Below, piece after piece: positions 6,386-64,000 of a DNA stretch of 64,000 bases. Position 1 is the stretch's first letter. Each line of letters starts with the position of its first letter. A program made the translations under genes and the position numbers. The notes below the pieces were generated by a model. The model searched no databases and had not been told where the DNA came from. It worked only from the letters and a program-made list of their open reading frames with translations. The stretch is taken from positions 62,001 through 126,000 of the forward strand of contig NZ_BMZG01000005.1 of NCBI RefSeq assembly GCF_014652675.1, in the 5' to 3' direction. The stretch comes from Formosimonas limnophila. Lineage in GTDB: Bacteria > Pseudomonadota > Gammaproteobacteria > Burkholderiales > Burkholderiaceae.

Positions 6386-6547
6386 ACGACACAGTTTTTC
6401 GTGCATTTTGCCCACTTTTGGTGCAAAATCACTGCTCATGAACGTCCGTGCGCAATCATAAGGCATGACACTCAGCTCAAACCGCTTTACTATAAGTTGT
6501 GGTATTTTTTCCAATGATTCACTTTGCTTTGTTTAGGAGACAAACTC

Positions 6548-7714
6548 ATGAATGCAAAAAACCTCCGCCATTTTGGCCTATCAATGTTTGCAGCTTTAGT
6601 TTTAACCGCTTGTGGCGGTGACAAGCCAGCTGAAAAACCAGCTGATGCAGCACCAGCGGATGCCAAATCAACTGAAGCGGCTCCTGTAAAGCTATCAGGT
6701 CAAGTCAGCATCTATAACTGGGCAGAATACATCCCTGAAGCCATGGCTGCTGATTTTGAAAAGCAAACCACCGTTAAAGTCAATTACGACACGTTTGACA
6801 CCGACGAAACGCTCAATGCAAAAATCATCGCGGGCAACACAGGCTACGACATCGTGATACCAGGTTCTGCTTGGGGCGAGCAACAAATCAAACAAGGCAA
6901 ATACCTCAAGCTCGATAAGAGCAAAATCCCGAACTACAAAAACCTCGACCCAGCGCTGATGGAACAAGTCGCCAAGATGGATCCAAACAATGAGCATTTA
7001 ATTCCTTGGGCATGGGGCTTTACAGGTATAGGTATCAACGAAGACAAGGTTATGAAAGCACTGGGCGGCATGCCTTTGCCAGAGAACCCGTTTGACTTGG
7101 TATTTAAGCCTGAGTACACCAGCAAACTCAAATCTTGCGGTATTTTCATGCTCGACTCACCGTCAGAGGTTTTGCCAGCTGCCTTGCAATACATGGGCAA
7201 AGAACCAAACAGCTCTAATGTGGCTGACTACACAGACGCTCTGAACAACTTACTCAAACCTGTGCGCGCCGACGTTCGTAAATTTGGCGACTCAGGTGTG
7301 GTCAATGACTTTGCAAATGGCAATCTGTGTGTGGCATTGGCATGGTCAGGTGACATCAACATGGCTGCAAAACGCGCCAACAACCCAAAAATGCGCATGT
7401 TGCTCGGCAAGGGCGGTATCGTGTTCTTCGATACCATGGCGATTCCAGCTGACTCTAAAAACGTGGACAATGCTTATGCATGGATTAACTACTATTTAGA
7501 TGCCAAAGTCGGTTCAGCCATGACCAATGAACTCGGTTATGCCACTGCAAACAAAGCGTCATTGGAGTTCGTCGCTCCAGAAGAAGCGGCAAACAAAACG
7601 ATTTTCTTAGACGCGGCGGTTCTGAAAGAAATGGCACCTCGCCGCTTACCAGAGTCTGAAGACGCTCGCAAAGCCATGACTGACGTATTCCGTCAATTCA
7701 AGTCAGGCAAGTAA
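6548..7714 (+). CDS. potF: Polyamine ABC transporter periplasmic substrate-binding lipoprotein (PotF/PotD family)
   Basis: The extracytoplasmic receptor of the putrescine/spermidine importer encoded by the next three genes. The start chosen at 6548 has TAGGAGACAAACTC directly upstream and gives a lipoprotein signal peptide ending in the lipobox LTAC, so the mature protein is lipid-anchored. The alternative in-frame ATG at 6524 would add eight residues before the signal. Family motifs include VSIYNWAEYIPE and GYDIVIPGS. An Ala/Lys/Pro-rich linker follows the cysteine. A strong hairpin separates it from potG, which would favour an excess of receptor over the membrane complex. Confidence 0.92.
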   Translation: MNAKNLRHFGLSMFAALVLTACGGDKPAEKPADAAPADAKSTEAAPVKLSGQVSIYNWAEYIPEAMAADFEKQTTVKVNYDTFDTDETLNAKIIAGNTGYDIVIPGSAWGEQQIKQGKYLKLDKSKIPNYKNLDPALMEQVAKMDPNNEHLIPWAWGFTGIGINEDKVMKALGGMPLPENPFDLVFKPEYTSKLKSCGIFMLDSPSEVLPAALQYMGKEPNSSNVADYTDALNNLLKPVRADVRKFGDSGVVNDFANGNLCVALAWSGDINMAAKRANNPKMRMLLGKGGIVFFDTMAIPADSKNVDNAYAWINYYLDAKVGSAMTNELGYATANKASLEFVAPEEAANKTIFLDAAVLKEMAPRRLPESEDARKAMTDVFRQFKSGK

Positions 7715-7718
7715 GCCC

Positions 7719-7758
7719 ATAAGCCTCGCAGTGCTGTTCGCTGCGAGGCTTATTTTTT
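7719..7758 (+). terminator. Strong intra-operon terminator between potF and potG
   Basis: ATAAGCCTCGCAG pairs with CTGCGAGGCTTAT (13-bp stem, 9-base loop) and is followed by TTTTT. It starts four bases after the potF stop. Read-through or a second promoter in 7759-7932 must supply potGHI. Confidence 0.85.
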
Positions 7759-7932
7759 CTTCGCTTTGCTTGAGTCCTCATCACAGCACCGTGTTTCGCA
7801 CTCTGTTTCGTCATTCACAACGCGTCACGAAAAGAACCACGATGCTGTCATGACTGCTTTGGTCATTTTCAATGGATTTATTCTTTCACACCCACTGGCG
7901 GACACAACCGCCCGCCACATGAGGAGACACAC

Positions 7933-9042
7933 ATGACGGCCACCCCTGCACGCGATGCGTCATTTTTAAGCATTGATAACCTTGAAAAAAAATTCGGCGA
8001 CATGACCGCCGTCAACAAGGTGTCTATCGACATTGCCCAAGGCGAGATTTTTGCGCTACTGGGCAGCTCAGGCTGTGGTAAATCCACTCTGCTGCGTATG
8101 CTGGCTGGCTTTGAGTCGCCGACCTCTGGGCGCATTTTGCTCGGTGGCCAAGACATCTCAAATGTCCCACCCTACAAACGCCCCATCAACATGATGTTTC
8201 AATCCTACGCGCTGTTCCCACACTTAAATGTTTGGGACAACATCGCCTTTGGTCTGCGTCGTGATGGTTTATCTAAGGACGTTGTGGCTGAAAAAGTAGA
8301 GTCCATGCTCAAGCTCACGCAGCTGACCAAATTTGCTAAACGCAAACCACACCAACTATCAGGTGGCCAACAACAACGCGTCGCACTCGCCCGCAGTTTG
8401 GCCAAAGAGCCAAAACTATTGCTGCTTGATGAACCACTCGGTGCATTGGACAAAAAATTACGCGAAGCCACACAGTTTGAGCTCGTTAACATCATCGAAA
8501 AAGTCGGCGTGACCTGCGTCATGGTGACACATGACCAAGAAGAGGCCATGACCATGGCCAACCGCATCGCCATCATGTCCAACGGCGAATTCCTCCAAGT
8601 CGGCTCGCCCACAGAAGTGTACGAAACTCCGCGCACAGAGTTCGTTGCGGACTTCATTGGTAACGTGAACTTGTTTGAAGGCGAAATTATCTTAGAAAAC
8701 TTAGAAACCGCCGAAGTCCAAACCGCCGATGCGCTGCACGTCATCGACCATGCCATCACAGGTCAAGTCGGCTCGAAAGTCACCATCGCCATCCGCCCAG
8801 AAAAAATCGACATCACCCGCGAAGCACCGAGCCATCGCGGCAACCAAACCAAAGGTGAAGTCACCGAGGTCTCATACTACGGCTCAGACACGATTTATCA
8901 CGTCAAACTGAACGGCACAGGCAAAGTGGTTAAAGTACAAAACGCAAACACCTCTCGCCTGTCTAATGAAGACAAATTCACATGGGGTGAGCAAGTGCAC
9001 CTGTCGTGGACATCTGAAGCCATCGTACCTTTGTACCTATAA
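7933..9042 (+). CDS. potG: Polyamine ABC transporter ATP-binding protein
   Basis: The 369-aa ATPase of the PotFGHI-type importer. Walker A is GSSGCGKST (from residue 44), the signature is LSGGQQQRVALARS, Walker B is LLLLDEPLGALD, and the switch histidine is in MVTHDQEEA. The C-terminal ~120 residues form the TOBE/OB regulatory domain (IAIRPEKIDI). The ribosome site GAGGAGA precedes the ATG. It is followed 12 bases later by potH. PotA of the spermidine system is nearly indistinguishable, but the order F-G-H-I argues for PotG. Confidence 0.93.
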   Translation: MTATPARDASFLSIDNLEKKFGDMTAVNKVSIDIAQGEIFALLGSSGCGKSTLLRMLAGFESPTSGRILLGGQDISNVPPYKRPINMMFQSYALFPHLNVWDNIAFGLRRDGLSKDVVAEKVESMLKLTQLTKFAKRKPHQLSGGQQQRVALARSLAKEPKLLLLDEPLGALDKKLREATQFELVNIIEKVGVTCVMVTHDQEEAMTMANRIAIMSNGEFLQVGSPTEVYETPRTEFVADFIGNVNLFEGEIILENLETAEVQTADALHVIDHAITGQVGSKVTIAIRPEKIDITREAPSHRGNQTKGEVTEVSYYGSDTIYHVKLNGTGKVVKVQNANTSRLSNEDKFTWGEQVHLSWTSEAIVPLYL

Positions 9043-9054
9043 AAGGGGACTGAC

Positions 9055-9975
9055 ATGAAAAAAAGCAACAAAAGCCCAACCACGCCCAGAAGCGCATGGG
9101 GCAAATGGACAGTCATCGGTATTCCATACTTTTGGCTATTCGTCATGCTTCTGGTGCCGTTTATTTATTTGGCCATGATCAGTGTCGCCGAAATGGTCTC
9201 AGGCGGCGGTTTCATGCCTGTTTATCGTGATGGCGGCTGGTTCTTTAAAGACAATTACAGCCCGATTTTGACTGACATCATCGAAGGTGGCCCTTATCGC
9301 ACCGCTTATCTGTCATCGGTTTATTACGCAGGTTTAACCGCCATCGGCTGCCTCATCATTGGCTACCCGTTTGCCTACTTCATGGCTCGCGCACCGAAAG
9401 AATTGCAGCCGACACTGCTCATGTTTGTCATGCTGCCTTTCTGGATTTCGATGCTCATCCGTGTGTATGCGATTAAAATTTTGTTTGACGACTCAGGGTT
9501 TTTGGTCACCACGCTCACTGGTGCACTCACCTCGATGGGGTTGATTGATGAACCGCTGCACTTACTCGGCACATCGTTTTCCATGATGTTTGGCATGATT
9601 TATGTGTATTTACCATTCATGATTTTACCGCTGTACTCGACATTGTCAAAAATGGATTCACGCTATTGGGAAGCCGCTGCTGACTTGGGCTCGACGCCTT
9701 TGAAAACATTTTTTCTCATCACCGTCCCGCTGTCTAAAGCAGGCATCATCGCGGGACTAATGTTGGTATTCATCCCATGCATTGGCGAATACGTCATTCC
9801 ACAGCTACTCGGTGGCGCAGACACACTCATGATTGGTCGTGTATTGGCTGACGAATACTTCCAAAATGCCGATTGGCCGCGTGCTTCTGCATTGGCAATC
9901 AGCATCATCCTCATGGTCATCGTCCCAATGATGATTCTCAACAAGTACCAAGAAGTCGCAGGAGAAACGAAATGA
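9055..9975 (+). CDS. potH: Polyamine ABC transporter permease, PotH/PotB family
   Basis: The first membrane subunit of the importer, 306 aa with about six membrane helices. The first is near residues 22-45, after a basic cytoplasmic N-terminus. The EAA loop that docks on the ATPase is readable as EAAADLGSTPLKTFFLITVPLS. The start has AAGGGGAC upstream. Its stop overlaps the potI start (ATGA), a sign of translational coupling. Confidence 0.92.
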   Translation: MKKSNKSPTTPRSAWGKWTVIGIPYFWLFVMLLVPFIYLAMISVAEMVSGGGFMPVYRDGGWFFKDNYSPILTDIIEGGPYRTAYLSSVYYAGLTAIGCLIIGYPFAYFMARAPKELQPTLLMFVMLPFWISMLIRVYAIKILFDDSGFLVTTLTGALTSMGLIDEPLHLLGTSFSMMFGMIYVYLPFMILPLYSTLSKMDSRYWEAAADLGSTPLKTFFLITVPLSKAGIIAGLMLVFIPCIGEYVIPQLLGGADTLMIGRVLADEYFQNADWPRASALAISIILMVIVPMMILNKYQEVAGETK

Positions 9976-10796
9976 AAGCACAACACCGTTGGTTCTCCCT
10001 GTCGTGGATGACACTGGTTTATGGTTTTTTGTACCTGCCCATTTTCATCCTCATCCTCTTCTCTTTTAATAGTGGTCGCTCATCCGTGTGGCAGGGCTTC
10101 TCCATCAAAGGCTACCAAGCCCTCCTGCGAGACAGTCAAATGATGAGTGGTCTCATGGTCTCGCTCAAAATCGCGCTGACCTCTGCCACCTTCTCCGTCA
10201 TGATTGGCACACTCATCGCCTTTGTACTGGTGCGCTACACACGTTTTTCTGGACGAACCTTGTTCAGTGGAATGGCCAGTACACCGCTGGTGATGCCTGA
10301 GGTCGTGCTCGGTTTGTCGCTTTTGTTGGTATTTAAAAGCTGGGTTGGTATCCAAGGCGGCTACACAACCATCATCCTCGGCCACATCCTGCTCGGCGCG
10401 GCGTATGCCTCTGTCGTGATTCAAGCACGCATGACCGAAGTGCCAAAATCATACGAAGAAGCTGCATTAGACCTCGGCGCGAAACCACTGAACACCTTCT
10501 TCCTTGTCACACTGCCCCTGATTGCTCAGTCGCTGTTATCCGCATGGTTGCTGGTGTTCACCATCTCATTTGATGATGTGGTCATTTCACAATTCTTAAG
10601 TGGTCCAGGTGTGAAACCTCTACCCACTGTGATTTTTGAGAATGCCAAATTTGGTGCAAAACCCGTCGTCAACGCCGTCGGCACAGTCATCGTGCTCGTG
10701 GTCTCCACGCTGCTCATCGCAGGCAGCATCTGGCTACAAAAACGAGAGAAACGCATCCAGCGAGAAATCGCCGCAGCGTATCGCGATGCCTCTTAA
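9972..10796 (+). CDS. potI: Polyamine ABC transporter permease, PotI/PotC family
   Basis: The second membrane subunit, 274 aa with six predicted helices. The EAA loop EEAALDLGAKPLNTFFLVTLP is present. The start at 9972 overlaps the potH stop by four bases and gives a normal N-terminus (MKAQHRWFSLSWM) leading into the first helix. Longer starts back to 9873 would encode a hydrophilic stretch inside potH and are rejected. A bidirectional terminator follows. Confidence 0.92.
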   Translation: MKAQHRWFSLSWMTLVYGFLYLPIFILILFSFNSGRSSVWQGFSIKGYQALLRDSQMMSGLMVSLKIALTSATFSVMIGTLIAFVLVRYTRFSGRTLFSGMASTPLVMPEVVLGLSLLLVFKSWVGIQGGYTTIILGHILLGAAYASVVIQARMTEVPKSYEEAALDLGAKPLNTFFLVTLPLIAQSLLSAWLLVFTISFDDVVISQFLSGPGVKPLPTVIFENAKFGAKPVVNAVGTVIVLVVSTLLIAGSIWLQKREKRIQREIAAAYRDAS

Positions 10797-10861: not shown

Positions 10862-11590
10862 TTACAGCAAAACATCCAACGCACGTGGAAACACAAAATC
10901 CAATGACAACGCTGCTGCGCGGTAAAGCTGCGCGCTGCGTTTGCCGCTTTTTTTACTGAACTCGGTTGGCAGCACCACTCCCGCATCCAGCACCCGCCGT
11001 CGAAATGATTTTTTCTCAAGGCCGTGCCCCAAAATCACCTCAAACACCTGCTGCAACTCCGTCAAGGTAAACAACTCAGGCATCAGCCCAATCGGCAATG
11101 CGGTATAGAGCGTTTTGCTACGTAACCGCTCAACCGCCAACCGTAACAGCATCTGATGATCAAACGCCCAGTCTAAATTCGACGCCTCATCGACAGGCAG
11201 CCATTGGGCATTCATGGCAAGCGGCGTGGCATGATCAATCAACGCAAAATACAATGCCGTCACCGACCACCCACGCGGGTCCCGTGTGGCATCCCCCACA
11301 GTTTGCACCTGCTCCAAATAAGGCGATGCAATGGCTGTCTTCTCAAATAATTTTCGATGCGCAGCCGCATCTAAACTCACGTCTTTTTTTAAATCAATAA
11401 ACCCACCCGGCAACGCCCAGCGCCCAAGCTGAGGCGACTCCTCACGCGTCACCACCAGCACATGCAAACGCTGCTCAACAATCGAAAAAATCGCCATATC
11501 CACCGTGGTCAGCGGCACGTCATAATCGTGGATGTTGTACGTTTTGAGAAACTCAACGTCGCTTGTCGTTTCAAGTTTGCTCATGGTCAT
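10862..11590 (-). CDS. nrtR: NrtR-type Nudix-domain transcriptional regulator of NAD metabolism
   Basis: A 242-aa protein with an N-terminal Nudix domain (about 20-145) and a C-terminal winged helix (about 155-230, with FTLTELQQVFEVILGH and SFRRRVLDAGVV). The Nudix box is degenerate. Where hydrolases have REXXEE it reads RKLFEK, as expected for regulators that bind ADP-ribose rather than cleave it. NrtR proteins repress NAD salvage genes, and this one is the last gene of a prs-nadV operon. Its ATG overlaps the stop of the pentapeptide gene (ATGA). The likely operator is the palindrome at 15965-15991. A plain Nudix hydrolase is less likely given the box and context. Confidence 0.9.
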   Translation of the reverse strand: MTMSKLETTSDVEFLKTYNIHDYDVPLTTVDMAIFSIVEQRLHVLVVTREESPQLGRWALPGGFIDLKKDVSLDAAAHRKLFEKTAIASPYLEQVQTVGDATRDPRGWSVTALYFALIDHATPLAMNAQWLPVDEASNLDWAFDHQMLLRLAVERLRSKTLYTALPIGLMPELFTLTELQQVFEVILGHGLEKKSFRRRVLDAGVVLPTEFSKKSGKRSAQLYRAAALSLDFVFPRALDVLL

Positions 11591-13593
11591 TTCATTTTCA
11601 GGTGGTTTCTCAAAGCCAAACCCACCAAGAACGTCAACGTATAACCGATAACCTTGAAAATCTCAGTTAAGACGGGAATTGACTGTAAGCCTTCACAACT
11701 CTTCGGTGAACCCAATAGCGGAACCAAGGTCGAAATAGCACATGACAACCGCGAAAAACCATTCCAAACGCCATCCCCGCTTAAATTAAACGCAAAGCCA
11801 TTTTTAAAACCCAGACTCACCATCATGGCAATCAAAACAACAAGCAACGCCAGCAACGGCCTTTTCACACTGACCCCATAGCCCATCAATCGGTAAAGAA
11901 TAATCAACCGAGAACGTCCCGTTTCATAAAACACAAATCGCCACATCTTTTTAGCAGTTACACCAATGTTGTGAAGACAAGACTTAGACCAATTAAGTTT
12001 CGGTTTACTTTCGATTCGAGCCAGCTCTTCTGCCATTTCTAATTGAAAGAACCGCTGCTCCTCCCGAATCGAACCGTGTTGGGCAAGCGCAAGCTTCAAG
12101 GTGCGGTAGCTGCGCTCATACTCTTCTTTACCTAAGGGGTCTGGGAAGTTGGCGTGAACAAAACTGCAATCTTGCGGCAACTTTGCGCCGTGAAATATTG
12201 GTGGAACTTTAAAAAAAACGGTATCTCTACTCTCAAGTTTCTTCTCTTCCGCAACGACTTCTCCATTGGCCTGCTTGACCATTTTCTTGTAGATCAAATC
12301 ATGGCTTTTAGTCCAGATCGCTGCACTGATAAACTCTCTGTTTCTAAAATCAACCTCGCTTTTAAACTCACAGCCATTAAAATGAGCTTCATAGAATTTA
12401 TTGGGTGACAGATCATTCGCCTTCGAAAACTCATCGGTTCGCTTGTTGTAGTCTTCGCTACACAGACTACGCATGAGATCTTTTGTTATCCCAGCGAAGG
12501 ATGCTTCCTTAACAAAACTACAGTTAGTCAATCCAATTACTTGAGTCTGAACACCTGTTAAATCAAACGTCGAATGAAAATATTCATCTGTGAAAAGTAC
12601 AGCAAGCTTCCAGCTAGAGAGCTTGGCATCGAATTTACGATGCCAAACATTGCCTAGAAACTGAACAGAATGCCCAAAGATTTTTTGGAAACTCACATTG
12701 CCTTTCCACTCACAGCCATTAAACTCTAACTCTGAATGAAACGTTACATTTATGAAATCAAAATCACTACCATGAAAATCTGTCGCATGAAATGTCACCT
12801 TTTTTTCGAAAATCGAGTCTTTAAAAACAACAGTCGTATCGAAAGTATCGCCTGAAAAAGAAACCTCCCCCTTGAATGTTGCATCAGAAAAACTTGTCGA
12901 AGTCCATTTTGAACGGTCAAAAAAAACTTGGCTGAAGGTTACATTAGAAAATTTACACGCGTTAAGAGTAGCGCCGTCTTTAAATTCAGCTTTATTATGA
13001 AAAACGGTGTTGGAAAATGTGGTGTTAAGCAAAAATTTAGCATTGTTAAATATGGCTTGCCCATAAAATTGGCTACCAACAAAGTGACAATAGGCATCAA
13101 AAGTGCTCATTTCAAAGTTTGCGTTAAACAATCTTCTCGTAAACTGACTCTCAGTACCAAATCGTGCAGCATTGAAAGAACTGTTAGCACCAAATGTGCA
13201 ATTTACAAAATTAGCCGCCCCCTTAAATTCTGCATCGCTAAAAGTGCAGTTGTTTCCAAACTTAAAGTTCTGAAACTCAGCTTCGCCATCGATGAATACC
13301 GTTTTGCTGAAATCAGCAATATTGCGATTCTCAATTTCACCATTTTCGTGTTTTATTTGCGTCACGGGGTGGTCTTTTCGCCATTGATTCCACACCCGAT
13401 GACCGAGTTTTGCCAGTGCCAAGCAGCCGTCTTTGCTGATGTTGTCAGCCGTTCCGTAAGCGGCGGGATTGCTGGCAAAAAGATTTTGATATTGTTGTTT
13501 CAGCTCTTCAGAGCTTGTATCGTGATGGTTATTTGATGTATTCATTGTTTCGCAGGGGTTGTGGGTGGATGACACTTTTGTCTCGATCAGCAC
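11587..13593 (-). CDS. Pentapeptide-repeat protein with C-terminal two-helix membrane domain, function unknown
   Basis: I do not recognise a named family. The 668-aa frame starts at GTG (13593); an ATG at 13545 would shorten it by 16 residues. Neither has a good ribosome site. After a short hydrophilic head, residues of about 75-420 show many degenerate pentapeptide-type units with a central Phe (for example FSDAEFKGAANF, FSNTVFHNKAEF), expected to fold as a right-handed quadrilateral beta helix. A mixed region of about 150 residues follows. Then come a membrane helix (about 578-596), a hydrophobic segment with STLVPLLGSP, and a last helix (about 640-662) with a cytoplasmic basic tail. It sits 14 bases after nadV and overlaps nrtR by four bases, so it is co-transcribed with NAD salvage genes. 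Base composition is visibly more AT-rich than its neighbours. Confidence 0.85.
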   Translation of the reverse strand: MLIETKVSSTHNPCETMNTSNNHHDTSSEELKQQYQNLFASNPAAYGTADNISKDGCLALAKLGHRVWNQWRKDHPVTQIKHENGEIENRNIADFSKTVFIDGEAEFQNFKFGNNCTFSDAEFKGAANFVNCTFGANSSFNAARFGTESQFTRRLFNANFEMSTFDAYCHFVGSQFYGQAIFNNAKFLLNTTFSNTVFHNKAEFKDGATLNACKFSNVTFSQVFFDRSKWTSTSFSDATFKGEVSFSGDTFDTTVVFKDSIFEKKVTFHATDFHGSDFDFINVTFHSELEFNGCEWKGNVSFQKIFGHSVQFLGNVWHRKFDAKLSSWKLAVLFTDEYFHSTFDLTGVQTQVIGLTNCSFVKEASFAGITKDLMRSLCSEDYNKRTDEFSKANDLSPNKFYEAHFNGCEFKSEVDFRNREFISAAIWTKSHDLIYKKMVKQANGEVVAEEKKLESRDTVFFKVPPIFHGAKLPQDCSFVHANFPDPLGKEEYERSYRTLKLALAQHGSIREEQRFFQLEMAEELARIESKPKLNWSKSCLHNIGVTAKKMWRFVFYETGRSRLIILYRLMGYGVSVKRPLLALLVVLIAMMVSLGFKNGFAFNLSGDGVWNGFSRLSCAISTLVPLLGSPKSCEGLQSIPVLTEIFKVIGYTLTFLVGLALRNHLKMK

Positions 13594-61285: not shown

Positions 61286-62812
61286 TCAAACCGTTTTGAG
61301 CGCTCGTCGATATTGAACCGCCTGCGCCATGTGAGGCAAGCCAATGGTATCCAACCCCTCTAGATCCGCTATTGTACGAGCAACGCGCAGAACTCGATGA
61401 TACACACGAGCTGACCAACTGAGCTGCCCCATCGCCTTAGCAAGCAACTGGCGAGCGGCATCATCAGGAACGCAGTATGAATCAACTTGCTTGACAGAAA
61501 GCCTGGCATTGACAACACCTTGTCGTTTTATTTGCCGATCAAAAGCTGTGCACACACGCTTAGCGACGCTACTGCTTTTTTCGCCCAAGCTCATTTTATT
61601 TAAATCACTGACCGCAACTGCTGGAACTTCGATTTGCATATCAATGCGATTGAGAAAAGGGCCTGACAAACGCGCCTGATAACGCAGTACATTATCCGGC
61701 GAGCATCGACAGACTTGTGTCGGATGTCCGAGGTAGCCGCACGGGCATGGGTTCATGGCGGCGATGAGCTGAAACTTCGCAGGAAAAGTCGCTTGCCGTG
61801 CTGCACGTGAAATGTGAATTTCACCTGACTCTAAAGGTTCACGTAAAACCTCCAAAACTTTTCGGTCAAACTCTGGCAACTCATCAAGAAACAGCACGCC
61901 ATGATGGGCCAGCGAAATTTCACCAGGACGTGGAATTGAACCACCGCCAACGAGCGCAACAGCAGATGCAGTGTGATGAGGGTTTCGGTATGGCCGTTTT
62001 TTCCAATTCGACGGTTTAAATTGTGCTGCACTGCTCTGTACCGTGGCTGACTCCATCGCATCAACCTCGCTCATAGGTGGCAATATGCCCGGCAATCTCG
62101 CCGCGAGCATGGACTTTCCTGTTCCGGGCGGCCCGACCATCAGCACGCTATGGCCACCGGCTGCGGCAACTTCGAGGGCACGCTTAACGGTAAGCTGACC
62201 GCGCACATCCGACCAATCGAGCTCTTGCTCATCGAGCACACTCAATAATGTATCGTCAACCTCAACCTCGCTTTGCGCCTCTGGTGAACGCAGTTTGGCA
62301 CAGACTTCGAGCAACGAGCACGCCGACCAAACACGCGCGTTCGAGACCAGCGCAGCTTCAACACAGTTGTCCAACGGCAATATGACAATCGGTGGTTCGC
62401 GCTGCTCACTCATCGCCTCTTGGGTGAGGCCAAAAGTCATGGCAAGCGCCCCTTGGATGGGACGCAGCTCACCCGACAACGAGAGCTCGCCTGCGAACTC
62501 ATATTGGTGAATGTTTTTTACCTGCAATTGCCCACTGGCCAGCAAAATCCCCAAAGCAATCGGCAAATCAAAGCGCCCACCCGCTTTCGGCAAATCGGCA
62601 GGTGCGAGATTAACCGTGATTCGCTTAGCAGGAAAGTTGAGCTGTGCATTTAATATAGCGGCACGCACACGGTCTTTGGATTCTTTAACTTCAGTTTCAG
62701 GTAGCCCGACGATATTGAATGAAGGCAGACCATTTGCCAAGTGCACTTCAACCGTGACCTGCGGCGCAGCCATACCAAGCAACGCACGAGATTTAATAAC
62801 CGCCAAACTCAT
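61286..62812 (-). CDS. comM: YifB/ComM family AAA+ Mg-chelatase-like ATPase
   Basis: A 508-aa protein. The N-terminal Lon-protease-like domain begins MSLAVIKSRALLGMAAP and includes FNIVGLPETEVKESKDRVRAAI. The chelatase-type AAA+ module has Walker A VGPPGTGKSML and Walker B VLFLDELPEF. A C-terminal Mg-chelatase domain with four-cysteine insertion (NPCPCGYLG, QVCRCSP) follows. ComM is a branch-migration helicase in natural transformation. The start is the ATG at 62812; upstream codons to 62941 overlap the channel gene. Confidence 0.93.
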   Translation of the reverse strand: MSLAVIKSRALLGMAAPQVTVEVHLANGLPSFNIVGLPETEVKESKDRVRAAILNAQLNFPAKRITVNLAPADLPKAGGRFDLPIALGILLASGQLQVKNIHQYEFAGELSLSGELRPIQGALAMTFGLTQEAMSEQREPPIVILPLDNCVEAALVSNARVWSACSLLEVCAKLRSPEAQSEVEVDDTLLSVLDEQELDWSDVRGQLTVKRALEVAAAGGHSVLMVGPPGTGKSMLAARLPGILPPMSEVDAMESATVQSSAAQFKPSNWKKRPYRNPHHTASAVALVGGGSIPRPGEISLAHHGVLFLDELPEFDRKVLEVLREPLESGEIHISRAARQATFPAKFQLIAAMNPCPCGYLGHPTQVCRCSPDNVLRYQARLSGPFLNRIDMQIEVPAVAVSDLNKMSLGEKSSSVAKRVCTAFDRQIKRQGVVNARLSVKQVDSYCVPDDAARQLLAKAMGQLSWSARVYHRVLRVARTIADLEGLDTIGLPHMAQAVQYRRALKTV

Positions 62813-62858: not shown

Positions 62859-63950
62859 TCAACCACCAAACATCGGACGCATAACCAAAAGCGTCGCGAT
62901 GACATAAACCACCAAACAAGCGAGCGCAGTAAATCGATCAAACCTTACCGCTCGACGAATCGCTTTTGTATCCACTTCACCATCATGGATATGCGCGATT
63001 TTAGTCGATAGCGCCAATGCAGCCACTACAGAAATACAGTAAAAATACCCAATAACATACAACTTATCTAACAATGTCATATACTCAATTGTCGGCAGGT
63101 CTTGGCTTGTTGTCATTTGCAATGCTACGATTGACAGCAAGGACACGACTGCAATTTGAAATCTAGCATCAACCAGTGAGGGGTGTAACAGAAAAGCAAG
63201 CGAACAACAAATCACGGCAAGTAATATTGGCACAATGTTTTTCATAAACGCATTGACATGCGGCCGCTCAATAGGCAAATCAAATGTTAAACGAGAGTAC
63301 GTTGAAGCTGTCTCTGAGCGAGGATCACCAAACGTCGTCTGGTGTTTGTAATCACTCGCAACTAACGTGGGAGGCTGAAACAAAAAACCTGGTAATTTCA
63401 AATCCGAGTTCACCGATACCTTATCCACGGTGTACTGAAGGGCAGATGCATCTGATATGCCATCCTCAATCACCACACGGATCAGTTGCTTATCAAAGGG
63501 ATAATGTCGCAAATCCATTTTTCGGCTCATTTTACCCTGCACGTGTTTGACTTGATAAAAACTACCGTCCTCTAACTTTTCTGGCTTCTCATACGTATCT
63601 GTCAGCATAGAGCTCCAAGACTCCGAGTGGTTCACAAACTCCATGGAAGCAGCAGGGTTTATATCCTCGCCTTTCCAGCGAAACCAAATATAAAAATCCA
63701 CCATATAGTTATGCAGTTTTAAATCAATCGCCTGCACATCGTTTAAATAAACCCCCACGAGCACCTGTTTTGCTGTGGCTGGTTGAGAGTTTTTTGCAAG
63801 CTCTTTAACTTTTGCCATCGTCGTTTGATTCATAGCATCTGCGGCTGAAGATGGCGTGTGTGATTGCGCAGACACAGCTGGCACGAACAAGAAAATACAC
63901 AACACCATACAGATTTTCACTAACCAGTTATTTTTAGTTGATTGGTTCAT
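62859..63950 (-). CDS. Pentameric ligand-gated ion channel homologue (Cys-loop receptor family)
   Basis: A 363-aa protein. The signal peptide (about 1-28, ending VSA) is followed by a ~210-residue beta-sandwich ligand-binding domain. The loop signature is readable as RHYPFDKQLIRVVIEDG, which is the family YPFD motif without the flanking cysteines. Four membrane helices follow: M1 (about 230-250), M2 (about 258-276), M3 (about 290-312) and M4 (about 334-356). M2-M3 carries SQDLPTIEYMTLLDK, close in form to GLIC/ELIC channels. It has a basic intracellular loop between M3 and M4. The ligand is unknown. It lies upstream of comM by 46 bases, same strand. Confidence 0.85.
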   Translation of the reverse strand: MNQSTKNNWLVKICMVLCIFLFVPAVSAQSHTPSSAADAMNQTTMAKVKELAKNSQPATAKQVLVGVYLNDVQAIDLKLHNYMVDFYIWFRWKGEDINPAASMEFVNHSESWSSMLTDTYEKPEKLEDGSFYQVKHVQGKMSRKMDLRHYPFDKQLIRVVIEDGISDASALQYTVDKVSVNSDLKLPGFLFQPPTLVASDYKHQTTFGDPRSETASTYSRLTFDLPIERPHVNAFMKNIVPILLAVICCSLAFLLHPSLVDARFQIAVVSLLSIVALQMTTSQDLPTIEYMTLLDKLYVIGYFYCISVVAALALSTKIAHIHDGEVDTKAIRRAVRFDRFTALACLVVYVIATLLVMRPMFGG

Positions 63951-64000
63951 TTTTTCCCATCCTTGTTTATCATTCTTTCGTAGTGTCCATCATTCGACAA

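Follow-up and report, generated by a model that had tools for sequence, protein, structure and literature searches.

Introduction

The closest described systems to the channel reported here are two prokaryotic pentameric ligand-gated ion channels (pLGICs), namely ELIC of Erwinia chrysanthemi, which is gated by amines, and GLIC of Gloeobacter, which is gated by protons. To our knowledge, few bacterial pLGICs have known ligands. The ligand pocket of ELIC, as outlined by Zimmermann and Dutzler 2011 (PMC3119659), consists of the following 11 residues: Phe19, Tyr38, Val40, Glu77, Ile79, Arg91, Asn103, Glu131, Phe133, Tyr174 and Phe187. According to the same report, the amine sits near Glu77 and Glu131, and alanine at Phe133 or Asn103 abolished the response to cysteamine. 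GLIC and sTeLIC have both been described as pH-responsive, and the carboxylate site of GLIC is formed by Arg77, Glu181 and Arg105 (PMC7336382). For the superfamily as a whole, Table 1 of Jaiteh 2016 (PMC4795631) gives seven residues characteristic of Pro-loop receptors. Moreover, Tasneem 2005 (PMC549065) reported that the hWxP motif is common to animals and only some bacterial channels, including those of Gloeobacter and Erwinia, and that bacterial channels fused to periplasmic binding domains exist.

In this study, a 64-kb stretch of DNA (the window) was analysed in which a prokaryotic Cys-loop receptor homologue next to comM had been predicted, with amines as candidate ligands. The predicted protein was compared with the known channels, its candidate ligand pocket was mapped and its distribution was surveyed in related genomes.

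Results

The open reading frame at 62859-63950 on the minus strand of the window is intact, starts with ATG and encodes 363 amino acids, and the sequence AAGGA at 63960-63964, 9 nt 5' of the ATG, is its likely ribosome-binding site. The homology of the product to known pLGICs was far above chance. Searches of the PDB with phmmer returned a GLIC-GABA-A chimera (E 4.1e-12), ELIC (2vl0; 8.9e-11) and GLIC (3eam; 1.5e-9), and a 28-sequence profile returned a GLIC-glycine receptor chimera at 8.7e-30 and ELIC at 5.5e-28; by name, the best 60 of 255 distinct sequences found with the profile were GLIC, ELIC or their chimeras. In addition, hhalign aligned the window channel to ELIC with a probability of 99.2 over 268 columns at 21% identity. 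The channel scored 21.1 bits against Neur_chan_LBD of Pfam (cut-off 26) and 11.8 bits against Neur_chan_memb (cut-off 28.1), and it remained far under the cut-offs of the NCBIfam models LIC and LGIC_1 despite E values of about 1e-11. Because the Pfam scores lie below the cut-offs, routine annotation could miss the gene. Its orthologues in Hydromonas duriensis (L001) and in a Burkholderiaceae MAG (L002) cleared the Neur_chan_LBD cut-off with 35.1 and 31.2 bits; among four further subfamily members (L041, L062, L042 and L009), two cleared the cut-off of Neur_chan_memb and none that of the LBD model.

The seven coupling residues listed by Jaiteh 2016 (PMC4795631) were all present, that is Y150, P151, D153, F189, R229, P241 and P286. 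The (F/Y)PxD motif at the beta6-beta7 tip is Y150-P151-F152-D153, the beta9 aromatic residue is F189, which aligned to W160 of GLIC (Phe in 20 and Tyr in 2 of the 22 subfamily rows), and the arginine preceding M1 is R229 (R192 of GLIC); P241 and P286 are the prolines of M1 and of the M2-M3 link. Four transmembrane helices follow the extracellular domain, and M2 carries the basic residue at 0' (R263) and the leucine at 9' (L272) typical of the superfamily. Cysteines occur only at positions 14, 18, 248, 249, 305 and 345. Since the extracellular domain is free of cysteine, the protein belongs to the Cys-less Pro-loop receptors and the disulfide pair of animal Cys-loop receptors is absent; the original prediction was right about the superfamily, and its term "Cys-loop receptor" was loose. 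Between the window channel and the MAG orthologue, a dN of 0.31 was obtained for this one pair and no dS, which was read as saturation; taken together, this is suggestive of purifying selection on the gene. As judged from these sequence comparisons, the prediction of a prokaryotic pLGIC homologue was confirmed, and the gene is a real, intact and conserved member of a known family.

The layout of the protein comprises a putative signal peptide of 28 residues with AVSA at its end, a linker of about 30 residues, a beta-rich domain at about residues 61-230 and the four transmembrane helices. The signal peptide (residues 1-28; 63867-63950, minus strand, as are all features of the gene below) has its hydropathy peak at residue 19, and its cleavage site was placed by eye. 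The periplasmic beta-sandwich domain (residues 61-230; 63261-63770) was delimited by alignment to ELIC and GLIC and by strands in a low-confidence model, and its Pro-loop YPFD (residues 150-153; 63492-63503) was located from the sequence and from alignment to PDB relatives. AlphaFold2 helices span residues 231-255, 263-282, 288-324 and 328-361, and the hydropathy centres of the four segments past the signal peptide lie at 251, 268, 306 and 348. These helices correspond to M1 with P241 (231-255; 63186-63260), which was also supported by alignment, pre-M2 and M2 (261-282; 63105-63170), M3 (288-324; 62979-63089) and M4 (328-361; 62868-62969). The predicted beta-rich extracellular domain, YPFD loop and four helices were accordingly recovered by alignment, hydropathy and model, and so was the GLIC/ELIC-like M2-M3 link, as M2 and the link align to ELIC without gaps. 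The AlphaFold2 model, built from a four-row alignment, had a mean pLDDT of 53.9; Foldseek placed GLIC at the top with E 2e-14, yet with a TM-score of 0.37 at 11 A, and a model of this quality (pLDDT 54, TM 0.37 to GLIC) is too poor for checking the geometry of the pocket.

According to the ELIC alignment, the pore-lining helix carries D261 at -2', A262, R263 at 0', Q265 at 2', V269 at 6', L272 at 9', A276 at 13' and M279 at 16'. The residue at -2' is Glu or Asp in all 21 subfamily rows that have a residue there. GLIC carries Glu at -2', and by analogy the acidic -2' position predicts a pore that would pass cations.

The region preceding loop A is short in the window channel. The distance from the beta2 tryptophan to the proline of the Pro-loop is 58 residues (W92 to P151), compared with 76 in ELIC (W43 to P120) and 72 in GLIC (W47 to P120), from which it follows that the segment bearing hWxP is missing. 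With about 16-21 residues lacking before loop A, the pocket geometry may differ from that of GLIC and ELIC. Of 83 distinct ORFs found, 67 allowed this measurement, and 64 of these had the same short region; the sample is biased to relatives, and the 16 unmeasured ORFs include W.P or long loop A types by eye (for example L050, L055, L075, L078, L080 and L081), so that the share of short types is overstated for bacteria at large. The split of the family by hWxP is already known from Tasneem 2005 (PMC549065) and is not new here.

The candidate ligand pocket was mapped onto the 11 positions of ELIC. By MAFFT, Phe19, Tyr38, Glu77, Glu131 and Phe187 of ELIC correspond to Y68, Y87, E104, E162 and Y218 of the window channel, and Asn103, Phe133 and Tyr174 are changed to V134, G164 and H203; Arg91 falls on D118 in a mapping that is unreliable, and ungapped runs place Val40 and Ile79 at W89 and V106. 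Glu131 equals E162 in three alignments, and HMMER concurs for loops B, C and D. For loop A, hhalign and MAFFT agree that Glu77 equals E104, and HMMER puts loop A of ELIC elsewhere; in its alignment to the GLIC domain, HMMER matches MEFVN, the same stretch, to loop A. Loop D is represented by Y87 (63690-63692), which is Tyr in 22/22 subfamily rows, loop A by E104 (63639-63641), which is Glu in 22/22 rows and is preceded by the missing segment, and loop B by E162-D163 (63462-63467), where Glu and Asp are each kept in 22/22 rows. At loop C, the window channel has H203 (63342-63344) where Tyr stands in the 18 subfamily rows outside Hydromonas that extend this far.

Six of the 11 pocket positions are invariant in the 22-row subfamily, namely Y68, Y87, W89, E104, E162 and Y218, with residue 218 absent from one row. 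Compared with 36 invariant positions among 168 of the extracellular domain, this gives a hypergeometric P of 0.013 when kinship is ignored. Identity to ELIC within the pocket is 3/11, about the background expected at 21% overall identity, and pocket identity was accordingly discarded as evidence of ELIC likeness. The loop B aromatic residue and Asn103, which would mark an ELIC-like amine receptor, are replaced by G164 and V134. The suggested comparison of the orthosteric box with ELIC and GLIC, made here by sequence, thus gave a divided result: Y68, Y87, Y218 and E162 are retained, as is E104 by two of three methods, and neither the loop B aromatic nor Asn103 is conserved. A pocket devoid of aromatic residues, which would have spoken against the original idea, was not what the sequence contained. 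Provided that loop A is aligned correctly, Glu occupies both positions of the ELIC amine clamp in 22/22 rows, which is a new observation. As read from these alignments, a candidate cation-binding pocket is the best-supported idea of how the channel may be gated, and amines are plausible ligands.

Another reading is a pH-gated channel, similar to GLIC (acid) or sTeLIC (alkaline), in which the response would be set by titratable residues, D71, H80 and H203 among them, without any need for an organic ligand. The residue at GLIC E26 is D71, an Asp in 22/22 rows, H80 occupies the position of GLIC E35, and H203 replaces Tyr in 3/3 Hydromonas orthologues. The position of GLIC E35, which we take to be the main proton sensor, is however non-acidic throughout the subfamily (Asn in 15 and His in 5 of 22 rows, with Gln and Tyr once each), and H203 is confined to Hydromonas within it. 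GLIC-like proton gating would call for an acid at E35 and for the carboxylate-site Arg77, and H80 and E104 stand in these places instead. Gating by a small cation is ranked as most likely, and pH gating comes next as a possible but rather unlikely mechanism.

The E162-D163 pair, invariant in 22/22 rows, could alternatively bind calcium together with nearby acids, so that removal of calcium would open the channel as in DeCLIC. Calcium inhibition has been described as common in the family, but the DeCLIC-type site lies in loop F, the beta1-beta2 loop and the Pro-loop rather than in loop B (PMC9897478). Moreover, the window protein has no room for the extra N-terminal domain of DeCLIC, and we regard control by divalent ions as improbable.

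Ranked after it, and likewise improbable, is gating by some other organic ligand, possibly presented by a periplasmic binding protein (SBP). Tasneem 2005 (PMC549065) reported both fusion to and association with such proteins, and both themes were encountered here. A distant relative (L007) is fused to Peripla_BP_6; it is one of 21 measured ORFs longer than 600 aa, the domain being identified in it by Pfam, and 17 of the 21 have Lys, Arg or Gln at the E162 position. In G416, a subfamily channel gene (L105 6922-7977) is followed on the same strand by a gene for an NMT1_3 (TAXI-type) SBP (8033-9343), assigned from the gene list and Pfam, with 55 nt to its first possible start. Against this, SBP families were absent from the four scanned Hydromonas neighbour ORFs and from 14 scanned neighbours of L100, L101, L102, L104 and L106.

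Amines had originally been proposed for testing because polyamines gate ELIC-type channels and the genome was said to invest heavily in polyamine uptake. Within the 64-kb window, there is some basis for this: the genes at 6524-10796 (plus strand), about 52 kb from the channel, have PotF, PotG, PotH and PotI as their best matches and are preceded by a glutamine-synthetase-like gene and an aminotransferase gene. Among polyamine-transport models, only TIGR01187 (potA subfamily) cleared its cut-off in this cluster. The cluster and the response of ELIC to diamines (PMC3119659) would fit a polyamine sensor tied to the putrescine uptake of the genome. However, a potF homologue is present in 6/6 genomes of the window's genus (partial in G003, with one in-frame TAG in G005) and the channel in 3/6, and in family f132 PotF-like matches occurred in 6/17 channel-positive and 3/13 channel-negative genomes. 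As potF is present with or without the channel, the polyamine link is not supported, and the argument from uptake to an amine ligand fails as evidence. Together with the 52-kb separation, these counts make a sensor tied to putrescine uptake highly improbable. Putrescine, furthermore, acts on ELIC only at high pH (PMC3119659). The interrupted potF homologue of H. duriensis lies at G005:C12:29479-30645. Elsewhere in the window, a 668-aa ORF at 11587-13593 (minus strand) adjoins a nicotinate phosphoribosyltransferase gene and had no NCBIfam match at 1e-10.

The neighbouring gene was identified as comM, as had been predicted: the gene for a YifB family AAA ATPase at 61286-62812 (minus strand) scored 602 bits with TIGR00368 (cut-off 362) and 542 bits with PRK09862 (cut-off 530). 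In 3/3 cases the channel gene immediately precedes comM, with both on one strand and a gap of 46 nt in the window, a 4-bp ATGA overlap in L001 and 1 nt in L002. The channel-comM junction lies within L094 3500-5400, a stretch in which no terminator-like site was detected, so that co-transcription of the two genes appears likely. This arrangement might suggest that the channel is an accessory of natural transformation. However, comM is present in 6/6 genus genomes and the channel in 3/6, so that three genomes carry comM and lack the channel, and comM gave no match when 9 stretches of 3.7-17 kb that surround the subfamily's channels in other families were searched by tblastn at 1e-5. A role in transformation therefore appears extremely improbable.

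The channel-negative genomes G001, G002 and G004 gave no channel match. In G001 and G004, comM is directly preceded by the small ORF that precedes the channel gene in H. duriensis (G005), and in G002 by an unrelated gene. This small ORF, of 97 aa (L098 8414-8707, minus strand), is hydrophobic in its N-terminal part and matched nothing in Pfam at 0.001, and it lies upstream of comM in G001, G004 and G005 with or without the channel in between. In a midpoint-rooted tree of comM, channel-positive genomes fall on both sides, which is most simply explained by a single old acquisition at the site with losses thereafter.

The orthologues L001 and L002 share 64-72% identity with the window channel, depending on stretch and method. 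As proteins, they are identical to the channels of G005 and G003, two genomes of the window's genus, which is therefore probably Hydromonas; the three channels are referred to as the Hydromonas trio. Any channel relative at E 1e-3 was detected in 7/249 sampled genomes of the window's family, three of which are Hydromonas, and in 41/398 genomes of the phylum sample. Outside the genus, the nearest relatives come from family f132 (17/30 genomes match, one of them only at 2.6e-4), from two genomes of family f102 (G416 and G579) and from a Chloroflexota MAG, the last as a fragment. Families f132 and f102 belong to one order in another class of the same phylum, which we guess to be Alphaproteobacteria. 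Three channels (L103, L107 and L108) were found by tblastn. The Hydromonas trio is firm in the tree (99/100); as its neighbours among the other subfamily rows are not fixed and the ELIC branch is very long, no donor is claimed. A phage origin was rejected, as 50,697 phage records contained no match and two pattern-based scans of viral contigs yielded no confirmed one, and so was a plasmid origin, with distant plasmid matches only (10 records, at most 30.3% identity).

Decayed copies of the channel gene were observed in G698 of the window's family (L085, three in-frame stops) and in G626 (L071, two pieces with stops), which suggests that the gene is dispensable. Two subfamily channel genes stand in tandem in G569 (L041 1402-2523 and 2610-3662), possibly encoding a heteromeric channel, and G196 has adjacent short-type channel genes on opposite strands (L011 223-1338, plus, and 1348-2379, minus) with spacings of 54 and 60 residues.

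A role in MCP-based chemotaxis, as proposed for such channels by Tasneem 2005 (PMC549065), is unlikely in the window's genus, as PF00015 (MCPsignal) had no match in 6/6 genus genomes; 7/14 control genomes matched. The neighbouring genus Puribacter has been described as non-motile (PMC12634028). On a plasmid of Azospirillum sp. B510, a channel gene (L040 3782-4870) is directly upstream of annotated CheW, MCP four-helix-bundle and mechanosensitive channel genes, and these neighbours may point to a chemosensory role in Azospirillum. In the literature collection searched, no report joining Hydromonas with a ligand-gated ion channel was found, and a broader search on receptors of this kind and on comM or YifB had no YifB among the matches listed.

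Discussion

The best explanation of these findings, which we put forward tentatively, is a channel gated by a small positively charged ligand at an acidic pocket and equipped with a cation-selective pore. The gene product would be one subunit of a homopentameric Cys-less Pro-loop receptor of the inner membrane, with five identical pockets at the subunit interfaces of the periplasmic domain. Each pocket would be lined by the carboxylates E104 (loop A) and E162 and D163 (loop B) and by the tyrosines Y68, Y87 and Y218. The ligand would be a small cation, most simply a primary amine or an amino compound, and its binding would move the Pro-loop against the M2-M3 link and open the pore, whose gate is expected at L272 (9'). 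The open pore would let cations into the cell, and the channel may thereby allow a rapid response, by membrane potential or ion flux, to a solute outside the cell or in its periplasm. Nothing that would link the channel to a ligand, a transporter or an enzyme gene was found.

The alignments also allow a broader and rather doubtful proposal, in which the plain channels lacking hWxP would form a functionally distinct clade of cation-ligand receptors. In this clade, the Glu-Glu amine clamp would have been kept, the Asp of loop B would replace the aromatic box and loop A would be truncated, so that amines or dications might be bound by charge and not by cation-pi interaction, which would represent an early ligand-binding solution in the superfamily. 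Which elements of the ligand site of animal receptors are ancient could be learned from a channel that lacks hWxP and whose acidic pocket is invariant. Moreover, the presence and absence of the channel at one site in close genomes offers a natural comparison for its physiological role.

Compared with known systems, the channel is most similar to the members of its own subfamily in f132 and f102, with which it shares 31-37% identity and the pocket signature Y-Y-E-F-N-E-D. Those channels differ in the 18 rows reaching these positions, where Thr stands at 6', Gly at 2' and Tyr in place of H203, and comM was absent from the stretches examined around them. Like the bacterial ART-LGICs without hWxP of Tasneem 2005 (PMC549065), the window channel has a short loop A region, and unlike the ART-LGICs with PBP-I fusions, it is a plain channel with Glu-Asp at loop B. 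With GLIC, it shares the fold by homology, the YPFD Pro-loop and the acid at the E26 position (D71); it differs by H80 at E35, by a region before loop A that is about 16 residues shorter and by loss of the carboxylate site, in which Arg77, Glu181 and Arg105 are replaced by E104, Y218 and H136. At 21% identity, it departs from ELIC in lacking the hWxP segment, being about 21 residues shorter before loop A, in the replacement of the loop B Phe by Gly, of Asn103 by Val and of Tyr174 by His, and in carrying its acid at -2', where ELIC has one at -1'. Nevertheless, it resembles ELIC in its fold by homology, the Pro-loop (FPFD in ELIC), the pre-M1 arginine, the M2-M3 link LP..Y.T..D, Arg at 0' and Leu at 9', and in the pocket residues Tyr38 and Glu131, with Glu77 added by two of three methods.
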